NCBI GenBank assembly: GCA_000349905.1
Contig: KB722737.1
Coordinates: forward strand, 1,613,335 to 1,677,334
Length of the DNA: 64,000 nt
Source: Volvariella volvacea V23
Lineage: Eukaryota; Basidiomycota; Agaricomycetes; Agaricales; Pluteaceae
Direction: 5' to 3'
In this document: piece by piece, positions 46,488-62,077 of the stretch
How positions within the stretch are numbered: position 1 is the first letter of the stretch
Layout: each line of letters begins with the position of its first letter
The notes under the pieces: generated by a model
Told to the model about the DNA's origin: nothing
What the model saw: only the letters and a program-made list of their open reading frames with translations
Databases searched by the model: none
Position numbers and translations under genes: made by a program

Positions 46488-48194
46488 TCATGTCCTAACA
46501 CTGATGCCCGCCTTTTCGAGGTATTTCTTCAAATCGGGTATCTTGAGTTCCCCTCGATGAAATATTCCGGCCGCTAGTGCTGCCTCTGCGGGGGTGTCCT
46601 CGAAGAGATCAACAAAGTGTTGACTCTTGCCTGCCCCGCTGCTCGCCACGACGGGTATCTTGGCATGTTTCTTCACCAGCGATACCAACTCTAAATCGAA
46701 TCCCAGACCTGTACCATCCCGATCAATACTGTTCAGCAATATTTCCCCAGCACCCAATTCTTCAACACCTCGCACAAGTTGCACCACTGATAATGGCCTA
46801 CTCTCCCGACCACCAGATACAGTGCATTGATACCACCACGCTTTACCCCGCTCGTTTTCCGATTTTCCAACGACAAGTTCATCTTTGTACAGCCCATCGT
46901 AAGACTTGGGATCCACATAGACTCTCCGCGGGTCAACTGAGACAACCACCGCCTGTCGTCCATACACGCTCGCAATAGTTTCAATGGCACTGGTGCCATC
47001 CACTTTCCCTGTTGCATGCAGCCTTTCCACGGCATAAACGGCTTCAGAGCCAATACTAACTTTATCAGCTCCGGCTCTGAAATAGGCGCCAGCAACCTCC
47101 AGGGCAGTTCGCTTAGTCCCATCTGGGTCTATTGTATCCTTGATCCCACCGCCAATGGTAAGAGGCACGAAAACACATTCAGCTGCTCTCCGCACAATGG
47201 CCAACATGGGTTGGTCTTGAAGGGGAGATAGTCGGAAAGACGTGATGTTAAGCAAGCAAATTTCGTCCGCGCCAGCCTCGTAGTATTGTGAAGCCAATGC
47301 TACTGGCTTACCGAGGTTACGAACTGCCCCAGCCACGTTGACCACGCCATCTGTACTAGGCTGGGCTTTCTCCCGCACGTCGTATTGGTCGCCTTTAGTG
47401 ACAACTAGATCCCCTTCGTCGTTTGTGCGAATATCCATGCACGCTATTATGCGCTTTGTAAGCGAAGAGACCGAGGATGGAGGGTGATTAATGGTTGGTG
47501 AAACTCCGATGAGCGTGTTCTGCTCAGAATTGTCCAGCCACGCGCCCAGAAGTGCCAATCCTGCAGTACCAGACTTCTCTGGGTGGAATTGAGTGCCAAA
47601 CACGTTCCCCTGGCGTACACTCGAAACGAATGTTTCGTCTCCATACTGGGTCAGCGTATATGCCCATCGTGCAGCATCCGGATATGACTGTGGCAGGTAC
47701 TTGGCGCAATATGAGTGAACGAAGTAGAAATATGGTCCATGAACTGTGTCGCGAGAGTTGATTGGGCCAGCGAATAGATTGGTGGCGTTCCAACCGATGT
47801 GAGGAACTGCCTTTTGTGCATCATCGAATCTATCAATGGGAGAGGGTATAATTCCCAAGCCGGGCAGGGGAGACTCGGCGGATGACTGGAAGAGGATCTG
47901 CATGCCGATACATATTCCGAAATACGGTTTGCCTGATTTTATGTACTCGTGAAGTGGTTGCAAAAGGCCACGAGCAGCGAGCTGGCCGACGGCAGTTTGA
48001 AACGAGCCGACGCCAGGGAAGATGAGTCTCTGTGTGATGTTTGGATTGTTATCAATTAAGATAAGATGGAATCTAACCGTTGCTTTCGCGAAATCACCTG
48101 GATGGGTGATCCAAGTGAACTGGTGGCCCAGTCGAGTCAGTGTGTTGGCGAGACTCTGGACATTGCCAGCACCGTAATCGAGGAGAAAGAGCAT
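46488..48194 (-). CDS. HIS7: Imidazole glycerol phosphate synthase (fused HisH-HisF), histidine biosynthesis
   Basis: Bifunctional enzyme: glutaminase plus cyclase, making imidazole glycerol phosphate and AICAR. Start MLFLLDYGAGNVQSLANTLT. Glutaminase: FPGVGSFQTAV, nucleophile Cys in YFGICIGMQILF, and GTQFHPEKSG. A linker is followed by the cyclase: KRIIACMDIRTNDEGDLVVT, AGADEICLLNITSFR, FVPLTIGGGIKD, AGADKVSIGSEAVYA, LNSIDRDGTGLGFDLELVSL and VVASSGAGKSQHFVDLF. One intron (48030-48077) is exactly 48 nt with no stop, so reading through it adds 16 residues between AKAT and RLIFPGVG. Removing it gives about 552 residues, the usual fungal length. Divergent from SER3, 185 bp apart. Confidence 0.95.
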   Translation of the reverse strand: MLFLLDYGAGNVQSLANTLTRLGHQFTWITHPGDFAKATVRFHLILIDNNPNITQRLIFPGVGSFQTAVGQLAARGLLQPLHEYIKSGKPYFGICIGMQILFQSSAESPLPGLGIIPSPIDRFDDAQKAVPHIGWNATNLFAGPINSRDTVHGPYFYFVHSYCAKYLPQSYPDAARWAYTLTQYGDETFVSSVRQGNVFGTQFHPEKSGTAGLALLGAWLDNSEQNTLIGVSPTINHPPSSVSSLTKRIIACMDIRTNDEGDLVVTKGDQYDVREKAQPSTDGVVNVAGAVRNLGKPVALASQYYEAGADEICLLNITSFRLSPLQDQPMLAIVRRAAECVFVPLTIGGGIKDTIDPDGTKRTALEVAGAYFRAGADKVSIGSEAVYAVERLHATGKVDGTSAIETIASVYGRQAVVVSVDPRRVYVDPKSYDGLYKDELVVGKSENERGKAWWYQCTVSGGRESRPLSVVQLVRGVEELGAGEILLNSIDRDGTGLGFDLELVSLVKKHAKIPVVASSGAGKSQHFVDLFEDTPAEAALAAGIFHRGELKIPDLKKYLEKAGISVRT

Positions 48195-58879: not shown

Positions 58880-59644
58880 CTAATAGAGCTGAATGTTACC
58901 GTCGGGGGACTTGACAGCCTCTTCCGCTGGGATCTGTCGCTTATACGGAATGATTCTACCTTGAGGCGCTTGGACAGGGTCCTCGACGGCCGTTTGACGT
59001 TTGTATGGAATGATTCGACCATTGGGTGCTTGGACAGGATCCTCAACGGCCGTTTGGCGTTTGTATAATTCAATTCGGCCGCGAGGAGACTTAACTGCTT
59101 CTTCAACAGGGATCTCTTCAGCGGGGATCTGTCGCTTATACGGAATGATTCTACCTTGAGGCGCTTGGACGGGGTCCTCGACGGCCGTTTGGCGCTTGTA
59201 TGGAATAATTCGACCGTCAGGCGCCTGGACAGGATCCTCAACGGCCGTTTGGCGTTTATAGGGAATAATTCGACCATCAGGTGCTTGGACAGGATCCTCA
59301 ACAGCTGTTTGACGCTTGTATGGAATGATTCGACCGTTGGGTGCCTGGACAGGATCCTCGACGGCCGTTTGGCGTTTGTATGGTTCAATTCGTCTGCGAG
59401 AGGATTGAACAACATCCCCAACAGGGATATCCTGCCTGACGTAAATGGGGATGGTTTTCAGGGGCTCCGAACCGGCCGATGGGGTAAGGGAGCGCTGAAA
59501 GATGTCTTTAGCAACTGCACCACTTCAGCACGAATGACAGGCAGCATGAACACCGACCTCAGTATACATGGGGACCGGTGATGAAAGAACTTGGCCAGCC
59601 AAGACCAATGCCAAAAGGCTGAGGAATGTCGCAAAGGAGAACAT
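58880..59644 (-). CDS. Secreted Kex2-processed repeat-peptide precursor (about 241 aa)
   Basis: Small secreted precursor, not matched to a named family. Start 59644 gives a signal peptide, MFSFATFLSLLALVLAGQVL. A 39-nt intron (59515-59553) joins PVPMYTEV to VAKDIFQRSLTPSAGSEPLK; both exons sum to 726 nt, exactly 242 codons. After YVR the rest is nine tandem peptides split by Lys-Arg. Six follow the unit QTAVEDPVQAPDGRIIPYKR, with N, D, D, Q, N, Q at the variable site. One degenerate unit leads (QDIPVGDVVQSSRRRIEPY). Two are of a second type starting QIPAEE, one of 23 residues before KR, and the final one ending NIQLY with no KR. Every peptide begins with Gln and ends with Tyr. Kex2 should cut after KR and carboxypeptidase trim KR. 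This layout is known from fungal KEX2-processed repeat proteins. Confidence 0.85.
58883..59434 (-). repeat. Tandem in-frame peptide repeat, mostly 60-nt unit
   Basis: Nine coding units. Six are 60 bp and near-identical, two are a second type and the first is degenerate. Units contain the core (GAG GA(T/C) CC(T/C) GTC CA) and AAA/AAG CG(T/C/A) for Lys-Arg. A higher-order copy is visible: a block of over 60 bp starting at plus-strand 58929 recurs at 59124 with few changes, a 195-bp spacing. Confidence 0.9.
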
Positions 59645-59690: not shown

Positions 59691-59752
59691 CTGCAACCAG
59701 AAAGCTGGAAGGAGATGAGAGATCGAACGAAAAGGAGGGGACAGAGACTTAC
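59691..59752 (-). other. Probable 5' UTR intron of the repeat-peptide gene
   Basis: Minus-strand GTAAGT donor at 59752 and TTGCAG acceptor ending at 59691, 62 nt with a pyrimidine-rich body. It lies between the TATA-like element and the start codon. Confidence 0.5.
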
Positions 59753-59810: not shown

Positions 59811-59820
59811 TATATAACGG
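59811..59820 (-). promoter_or_regulatory. TATA box of the repeat-peptide gene
   Basis: Minus strand reads CCGTTATATA, about 170 bp upstream of the start codon and about 60 bp upstream of the probable 5' UTR intron donor. A strong TATA box is unusual among the housekeeping promoters here and fits a regulated, highly expressed secreted product. Inferred from position. Confidence 0.45.
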
Positions 59821-59885: not shown

Positions 59886-62077
59886 ATGCCAGATCCCCGG
59901 TTTGCAAGATTAAAGACTGACCCCCGATTCCGTCCAATAAAGAGACACAAAACAAAGCTTCAGTCTGACGAGCGTTTCAATGCCGTCTTCCAGCCCGGTT
60001 TCTCTCGTAAAACTCGATCCAGTTCGTTGCTTGCAATTTTCTGCACCCTATCATTAAAATACATCTTTATCCATTGATGTAGCTCGCGTGGATAAGTATG
60101 GACGTGCCATATCCAAGTCCAAAGAGCAGGAAAACTTGAAGCAACTGTATCATATCGAGAACGAGCACGAGGTCCTCAGGGCCAGCCTGGATTACGCCCG
60201 CGGAGAGGTGTTGTTAGAGTCATCGGACGAGGGTGAGGGCGAAAGTGACAAGGATGAGGTGGTGACAATCGGTGACGACCCTTCTCGTATCTCCCTCGGA
60301 ACCCAGGAAACAGGAGTGGAGGTTGAAGTTGACCTAGATGAAGACACGGTTGCAGCATTGGATGCACAGGTCGAAGCATACAACAGGCTCAACCCTATCA
60401 ACGATCATGTTTCAGGAGCCAGATCATGTCGACTGGCCGTCGTAAATCTTGATTGGGATCATGTCCGCGCTGCACACCTGTACAAGGTCTTCGCCTCTCT
60501 CCTGTCTCCTGTAGGCCCTCCACCATCTAATGTGAGGACAAAAGGGGTAGCTGCCAGTGTGGCCCGCGGACGCTTACTGAGCGTCCGTGTTTATCCCAGC
60601 GAGTTTGGGAAGCAAAGAATGGCAAAGGAAGAGAAGGAAGGCCCTCCCCCGGAAATCTTCAAAACGCACGAGTTCCAGGAAAGCGAGATCAACGAAAAAA
60701 CAATTCATGACGTTGCCGATGCAGAGGCCAATTACAACGAAGATGCACTACGTACATACCAACTAGAACGCTTGCGGTAAGCGAAGGTCCATAGTCGGCT
60801 GCCAAAATCTAACATTATCACGCCCAGCTATTACTATGCTATTGTAACATGCGACACTGTCGAAGCAGCCATGCATCTGTATTCTGAACTGGATGGCACG
60901 GAACTTGAACGGTCTGCTAATGTGTTGGACCTTAGTTTTGTCCCCGATGAGATGTCATTTGATGATAAGCCACGGTGAGGCGGTTTACTTCTTCCCCCGA
61001 GTCAATCGCCTCACAAAACTAGGGATGAAGCCACAGAGGATATTGGCACAGTTAAGCCATTGGATTTCGTGACAGATGTACGCAATCAGGATTTCTTTAT
61101 CGCATTACTGACGTCGTTTTAGGCGCTCCGACACTCCAAAGTAAAGTTGACATGGGATGAAGATGACCCACAACGGACCAATGTGACAAGACGCACCCTC
61201 ACGCAGCAGGAGATTGATGCAGACGACTTTCGGGCGTATATCGCGTCCTCGGAGTCGGAAGACGAAGGAAAACCCCAAAAAGCCGTGTCTCGCAATCGCT
61301 TGCGCGCTCTACTTCTAGGGGATAAGGACGACCTTCCCGAAGGTTGGGCTCGGGACGAGGGCAAAGACAACATAGACATGGAAATCACGTTTACTCCTGG
61401 CCTTAGTAAATCCACCCAAAAGGGCGATGAAACCACACTAGATCAATATCAGCGCAAGACGCGAGAAAAGCGTAAAAGGCGCAAAGAAGAAAAGAAGGAC
61501 AACCTGGAACAACCCAGGGGCAGCAAGCCATCGGACGACGATTTCTTCGAAGTCAATCAATCGGACAGTTCTGTCTCCAGTGTGGGTGTCCCAAGTACAA
61601 TTGCTGGTGAACCAACGGTGTCCATGGAGAGTAGACCATCCCGCATTGTTGAGCCTCAGCACTTCGACATGAAGGCTGTGATCAAGGCCGAACGGAAGGG
61701 AAAGAAGGGTAAAAGGCAGAAGAGGACACCTAATGAGGGAGAGAATGTCCAAGAGGACTTCGCCATTGATGTTAATGACGAACGATTCTCTGCCTTGCAT
61801 GAAGATCATACATTTGCAATTGATCCCAGCAATCCTCAGTGAGCTCTTCGTTATCCATCACCTAAAGAATATTCACTGACCCTCCTCAAGTTTCAAAAGG
61901 ACCAAAGCCATGTCTACTCTTTTGGAAGAGCGATCGAAGAGGCAGAGGCAGAGACAAGAGGCAGGTGGTAATGATCTACGTGTGGCTAGCACTGGGCTGG
62001 ATGGTCTCGTAGAACGAATTAAGCGTAAAAGCGAGACCGTCGGACGATCAAAAGCCAAGAAACTGCGTAAAGGCTGA
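59886..62077 (+). CDS. ESF1: Pre-rRNA-processing protein ESF1
   Basis: Nucleolar factor for 18S rRNA maturation. Start MPDPRFARLKTDPRFRPIKR then HKTKLQSDERFNAVF, the conserved N-terminal block. An intron (about 59990-60087) leads to DKYGRAISKSKEQENLKQLY HI. Acidic stretches follow (LESSDEGEGESDKDE, VEVDLDEDTVAALD). The RRM-like region reads SCRLAVVNLDWDHVRAAHLY, LLSVRVYPSEFGKQRM, YYYAIVTCDTVEAAMHLYSE and ELERSANVLDLSFVPDEM. The C-terminus includes DDFRAYIASSESEDE, DKDDLPEGWARDEGKDNIDM, EITFTPGLS and the NUC153 motif DERFSALHEDHTFAIDPSNP with the final exon FKRTKAMSTLLEERSKRQRQ. Five exons. All blocks fit ESF1. Confidence 0.9.

Follow-up and report, generated by a model that had tools for sequence, protein, structure and literature searches.

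Introduction

Vogt et al. (2022, PMC9769878) found by mass spectrometry that the repeat protein KEP 497993 of Coprinopsis cinerea releases two peptides, pyro-QIPAELPTKSINGNIEPY(K) and pyro-QVPVDEPA. According to the same report, these peptides are gone in the C. cinerea knockout, persist in the kex mutants that were tested, and come from a precursor of which other agaricomycetes have at least 13 homologs (PMC9769878). Deletion of KEP 497993 is reported to leave growth and fruiting normal (PMC9769878). On the function of this family, hereafter the QIPAE family, PMC9769878 was the only relevant source among the matches listed in our literature search.

We analyzed a 64,000-nucleotide stretch of the Volvariella volvacea genome (hereafter, the window) that includes a minus-strand gene at positions 59644-58880, with an ATG at 59644 and a stop codon at 58882-58880. 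The product of this gene is very probably a KEX2-processed repeat protein in the KEP 497993 family, and up to nine peptides cut from it would be exported, most likely as a signal.

Results and discussion

The precursor belongs to the KEP 497993 family

The last of the nine peptide units in the precursor, unit 9 (QIPAEEAVKSPDGNIQLY; 58883-58936, minus strand, directly followed by the stop codon), is of the ancestral type and is identical to the C. cinerea peptide QIPAELPTKSINGNIEPY in 11 of the 18 positions. Among 200,000 permutations with the Q and Y ends fixed, none reached this level of identity; the score was equalled in a fraction of 2e-5. The main unit, QTAVEDPVQAP(x)GRIIPY, is identical to the same peptide in 7 of 18 positions, a value attained by 0.4% of the permutations. 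When three joined copies of the C. cinerea peptide were compared with the whole 35.4-Mb genome (54 contigs) at E <= 10, all four matches fell within the precursor gene (best E 3.5e-8).

The precursor protein alone, as the query, retrieved none of 355 candidates at E <= 1, so that a two-row profile, composed of the window repeats and the C. cinerea unit, was needed. Of 169 candidates, this profile detected five at E <= 1, and for four of these the E-value was 4.5e-16 or lower. The homolog search of the peptide unit that had been proposed in the initial annotation thus yields four clear relatives with shared units, namely, P0121 from Hymenopellis radicata (hypothetical protein BDZ89DRAFT_1034183; best match, E 1.2e-36), P0122 (5.8e-20), P0123 (2.2e-18) and P0124 (4.5e-16), along with P0125 (2.1e-5), which is for the most part an unrelated reading in which two or three units can be recognized. 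Searched back into the genome, P0122 produced two matches, both at the precursor locus (best E 6.1e-10). Pfam gave no match over the cut-off for the precursor (DUF4638 and MamL-1 were far below theirs), and a PDB search with P0121 gave no relevant match.

When the six proteins were divided at their paired basic residues, a unit motif emerged that can be approximated as Q(D)(I/T)(P/A)(A/V/T)E-x-(A/P)-V-x-(A/S/T)-x-x-G-x-(I/V)-x-x-(Y/F). Scored on the same window and relative sequences from which it was written, this motif fits eight of the nine window units, with unit 1 as the misfit, as well as four, four, four and three units of P0121 to P0124, respectively, and one unit of P0125; in a weak control, its core was present in 0 of 120 ESF1-region proteins. 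Across the family, residue 12 is N, D, E, Q or R, and the terminal residue of the units is either Tyr or Phe. The units of P0122 and P0125 end in Phe, and several units of P0121 contain an Asp between the Tyr and the Lys-Arg; both findings weaken the case, made from the window sequence, that the terminal Tyr is a site of modification. In the window precursor, P0121, P0122 and P0123, the protein ends with the Tyr or Phe of the last unit, which points to this residue as the mature C-terminus, with the proviso that P0122 and P0123 come from short contigs, so that their ends may reflect cut-off records. A leader of the form RS..PL..IP.Y, a feature proposed in the present analysis and not in PMC9769878, precedes the repeats in the window precursor, P0121 and P0122 but is absent from P0123 and P0124, and only IPTY is found in P0125.

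These sequence comparisons place the precursor in the agaricomycete KEP 497993 (QIPAE) family, as a lineage-specific version, and not in the undescribed family to which it was assigned at first. The new detail is the QTAVEDPVQAP(N/D/Q)GRIIPY unit, which is amplified beside the older QIPAE-type units; the strings QTAVEDPVQAP, GRIIPYKR, QIPAEEAVKSP and DGRIIPY gave no match in the literature searched, among the matches listed.

Nine peptide units and codon-level constraint

Translation of the repeat region yields nine units of 19, 18, 18, 18, 18, 23, 18, 18 and 18 residues, all starting with Gln and ending with Tyr, the last Tyr being immediately followed by the stop codon. At least three similar repeats with Kex2 sites between them define a KEX2-processed repeat protein, and here nine units are separated by eight Lys-Arg pairs. 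The nine Gln-to-Tyr peptides of the initial annotation are thus all present, but the Lys-Arg rule does not extend to unit 1 (QDIPVGDVVQSSRRRIEPY; 59378-59434, minus strand), which is preceded by Val-Arg, that is, a single basic residue. This unit also contains an internal Arg-Arg-Arg and, for that reason, could be cut internally. It is followed on the same strand by the Lys-Arg-separated units 2-5, QTAVEDPVQAP(N,D,D,Q)GRIIPY (59138-59371), the 23-residue unit 6, QIPAEEIPVEEAVKSPRGRIELY (59063-59131), and units 7-8, QTAVEDPVQAP(N,Q)GRIIPY (58943-59056), ahead of unit 9. Apart from an out-of-frame shadow of the precursor, no similar array was detected elsewhere in the window by a crude six-frame scan of the fragments between KR, RR and KK.

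The translation bears out the observation that the six QTAVEDPVQAP(x)GRIIPY units differ in residue 12 only (N, D, D, Q, N and Q, in order). At the nucleotide level, the six units can be compared over 20 codon columns, 18 for the residues and two for Lys-Arg; 15 of these columns vary, and the amino acid is altered in one. Of the 16 nucleotide sites that vary, 14 are third positions of codons, so the peptide sequence of the six units is constrained, as had been supposed; the summed pairwise differences comprise 115 synonymous and 22 non-synonymous changes, compared with about 25% synonymous expected for random single changes in the same codons. Units 5 and 8 differ in 1 of 60 bases and the other pairs in 4 to 13, so that old and recent duplications alike have preserved the peptide.

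We tentatively entertain, without leaning toward it, the possibility that a single precursor carries two classes of peptides in a fixed array, one of the ancestral QIPAE/QDIPV type and the other the amplified, strictly maintained QTAVEDPVQAP(x)GRIIPY, the latter so far seen in this lineage only. If this is the case, a ligand would have been switched or split within one gene, and residue 12 would be the only position at which change is tolerated; such an arrangement would resemble that of C. cinerea KEP 497993, from which different peptides are released in different tissues.

Processing and likely role of the peptides

The reading of the gene as a Kex2-type precursor with a hydrophobic N-terminus holds up, both in the layout of repeats and Lys-Arg pairs and in the presence of kexin in the genome, where there is one P-domain match, the open frame of which matches kexin of known structure at 1.6e-30. 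The genome also contains 17 exon matches to S10 carboxypeptidases, among which a Kex1 orthologue was not singled out, and two open frames in C3:821741-822399 that match glutaminyl-peptide cyclotransferases (1.5e-16 and 6.7e-21), in agreement with the earlier remark that an N-terminal Gln is suited to pyroglutamate formation. There are 11 M28 peptidase matches in the genome, of which two that were checked, apart from the glutaminyl cyclase, resemble aminopeptidases. Three M28 matches lie on the same strand within 36 kb (C26:345617-381341), a possible local expansion.

Because genes for kexin, S10 carboxypeptidase and glutaminyl cyclase are all present, processing could proceed by the steps demonstrated for C. 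cinerea, and by analogy with the C. cinerea homolog, we infer both processing and pyroglutamate formation for the present precursor. Upon entry of the precursor into the secretory pathway, kexin would cleave after Lys-Arg and probably also after the lone Arg that precedes unit 1. A Kex1-type carboxypeptidase would strip the Lys-Arg to expose the terminal Tyr, and glutaminyl cyclase would close the N-terminal Gln. Each precursor could thereby give rise to as many as nine peptides, all linear, without cysteine and 18-23 residues long, of which six would be lineage-specific and three of the older QIPAE/QDIPV type, to be exported, most likely as a signal to other hyphae or neighbouring organisms. 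The gene supplies exact peptide masses to seek: the computed values are 1949.985, 1950.969 and 1964.000 Da for pyro-QTAVEDPVQAP(N/D/Q)GRIIPY, respectively, and 1953.968 Da for pyro-QIPAEEAVKSPDGNIQLY.

With respect to function, a secreted signal directed at other hyphae or organisms is our best guess, one that we would rate at about even, given that a ligand would be expected to be conserved, to have its N-terminus capped and to end in a defined aromatic residue. It is also possible, albeit doubtful, that the same family membership and processing yield linear peptides that serve the surface or wall, or act against competitors or grazers. A bulk product of this sort would be in keeping with a yield of up to nine peptides from each precursor, and the C. 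cinerea authors, noting knockouts without an axenic phenotype, propose a role in the biotic environment (PMC9769878). However, the peptides are Cys-free, hydrophilic (GRAVY -0.46 to -0.84) and net acidic or near neutral, so that the properties expected of a cationic antimicrobial, or of a hydrophobic coat, are lacking; the surface-coating role suggested initially is, accordingly, not favoured by hydropathy. Furthermore, the synthetic C. cinerea peptides are reported not to inhibit five bacterial strains (PMC9769878).

Gene model and splicing

A further trait of KEX2-processed repeat proteins is an N-terminal signal peptide. The hydrophobic N-terminus encoded from the ATG, MFSFATFLSLLALVLAGQVLSS, aligns with the N-termini of P0121 and P0122, as judged by eye and alignment, and is probably a signal peptide of about residues 1-22. 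In the preferred gene model, exon 1 (59558-59644, minus strand) contains the start codon, this probable signal peptide and the first leader residues.

Between the signal region and the repeats, there is an in-frame TGA at 59527-59525, so that an intron is required. Enumeration of frame-keeping introns of 30-130 nt with GT-AG or GC-AG ends yielded 26 that could take out the TGA, including the 39-nt intron (59553-59515) of the initial annotation, which is probably misplaced. We favour a 63-nt intron on the minus strand (59557-59495) that covers the TGA, with the donor GAG|GTCGGT, a branch-like GCTAAAG and the acceptor TTTCAG. Among the options, this donor is the best by the fungal splice consensus, and a length of 63 nt is nearer than 39 nt to the middle of the distribution for 26 intron-like elements identified in the window by a crude pattern count (median 67, with a lower quartile of 51). 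The 63-nt intron is thus probably the better choice in its donor and acceptor, its branch-like site and its length. The resulting model predicts a 233-residue precursor in which exon 2 (58880-59494, minus strand) encodes the leader and the nine peptide units through the stop codon; the leader RSLTPSAGSEPLKTIPIYVR (59435-59494) resembles RSPAPLEVIPAY of P0121 and RSPEPLRTIPVY of P0122. Pattern matching on the minus strand, upstream of the gene, identified a TATATA element that could be a TATA box (59811-59816) and a possible 5'-UTR intron, GTAAGT...TTGCAG (59691-59752; alternative acceptor at 59705). An overlapping minus-strand ORF of 200 residues (59421-58819) was considered and rejected because the variable sites are third positions of the precursor frame.

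Alternatively, the in-frame TGA could be genuine, in which case the gene would have decayed and would encode no functional precursor; the presence of the TGA and the absence of an ideal consensus donor would fit this reading. We find this very improbable, considering that the nine units are intact, without a frameshift, that the third-position bias among them is strong, and that there are 26 possible introns that take out the TGA.

Genomic neighbourhood

Among ten flanking open frames that were scanned, chosen from 34, five were recognized, all of them housekeeping (a HIS7-like protein, 2-hydroxyacid dehydrogenase, ribosomal L4 and two ESF1 exons), and five gave nothing; this partial scan showed no sign of a biosynthetic cluster around the precursor. 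The ESF1 open frames, with RRM and NUC153 domains, occupy positions 60088-61839 of the window on the plus strand; the first of these is divergent from the precursor gene, about 0.44 kb from its ATG, and makes a useful synteny anchor. The HIS7-like protein is encoded in a single frame on the minus strand (window positions 46488-48191) and combines glutamine amidotransferase and His_biosynth domains.

These observations bear on the possibility that the gene encodes a dikaritin-type RiPP precursor, with units cyclised via Tyr. The dikaritin precursors of ustiloxin and phomopsin resemble the present gene in having a signal peptide and Kex2-separated repeats, Tyr is conserved in the precursor, and UstYa genes do exist in the genome. 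Nevertheless, such a cyclic product, raised on first inspection of the sequence, is highly unlikely because the UstYa matches are on other contigs: there is none near the precursor on contig C2, and the four exon matches in the genome are all on C12 and C23. In addition, the five recognized flanking frames are all housekeeping, the units end in Phe in two of the five relatives, the C. cinerea homolog is reported to yield linear peptides (PMC9769878), and the EDYXI core described for dikaritin precursors (PMC6339444) is absent from the present units. A crude scan of six 10-kb stretches near the UstYa matches detected no repeat precursor. Two of the UstYa-family exon matches (C12:171212-171451 and C12:173174-173428) are on the same strand about 2 kb apart and might represent a UstYa/UstYb pair, for which no repeat precursor was found in 30 kb scanned with a crude criterion.

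Least credible of all is an alpha-factor-like pheromone trimmed by Ste13: although Kex2-separated repeats behind a hydrophobic N-terminus fit this scheme, and basidiomycete KEPs with Ste13 signatures are on record (PMC9769878, PMC6339444), the initially mentioned mating-pheromone type is rejected on the unit starts, the second residue being T, I or D in all nine units and never the A or P of the Ste13 dipeptides XA/XP.

Comparison with known systems

The precursor of exported, probably pyroglutamate-capped peptides that we favour can be compared with several known systems. In the survey of Umemura (2020), KEP type #7 (G-1/P-2) includes 64 KEPs from 49 genera, among them Coprinopsis, Pleurotus, Hypsizygus and Panaeolus, and is reported to be the most widespread KEP type by genera, with 1.03 KEPs per strain, a Tyr-rich profile and DUF3328 (UstYa) nearby in 0 of 64 cases (PMC7329392). 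The points in common are the inclusion of Coprinopsis, about one copy per genome, richness in Tyr and no UstYa neighbours, and on these traits type #7 is likely to be the QIPAE family.

Hymenopellis radicata P0121 shares with the present precursor the hydrophobic N-terminus, the RS.xPLxxIPxY leader, the QIPAE(Q/E)AVKS(D/E)NGNIVPY units and the last unit that ends the protein at Tyr, but several of its units carry an Asp after the Tyr, ahead of the Lys-Arg, its spacers are irregular and it has no units of the QTAVED type. C. cinerea KEP 497993, as described in PMC9769878, has in common with the present gene the Gln-start, Tyr-end units, the QIPAE...KS..GNI..Y motif and the Kex2-type precursor organization; by comparison with the published C. 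cinerea peptide, six of the nine units in the present gene are of the distinct QTAVEDPVQAP(x)GRIIPY type. The family is a conserved secreted-peptide precursor of mushroom-forming fungi. The present member adds material for comparison, not a system of a new kind, and shows which residues are retained where most of the units have been replaced.
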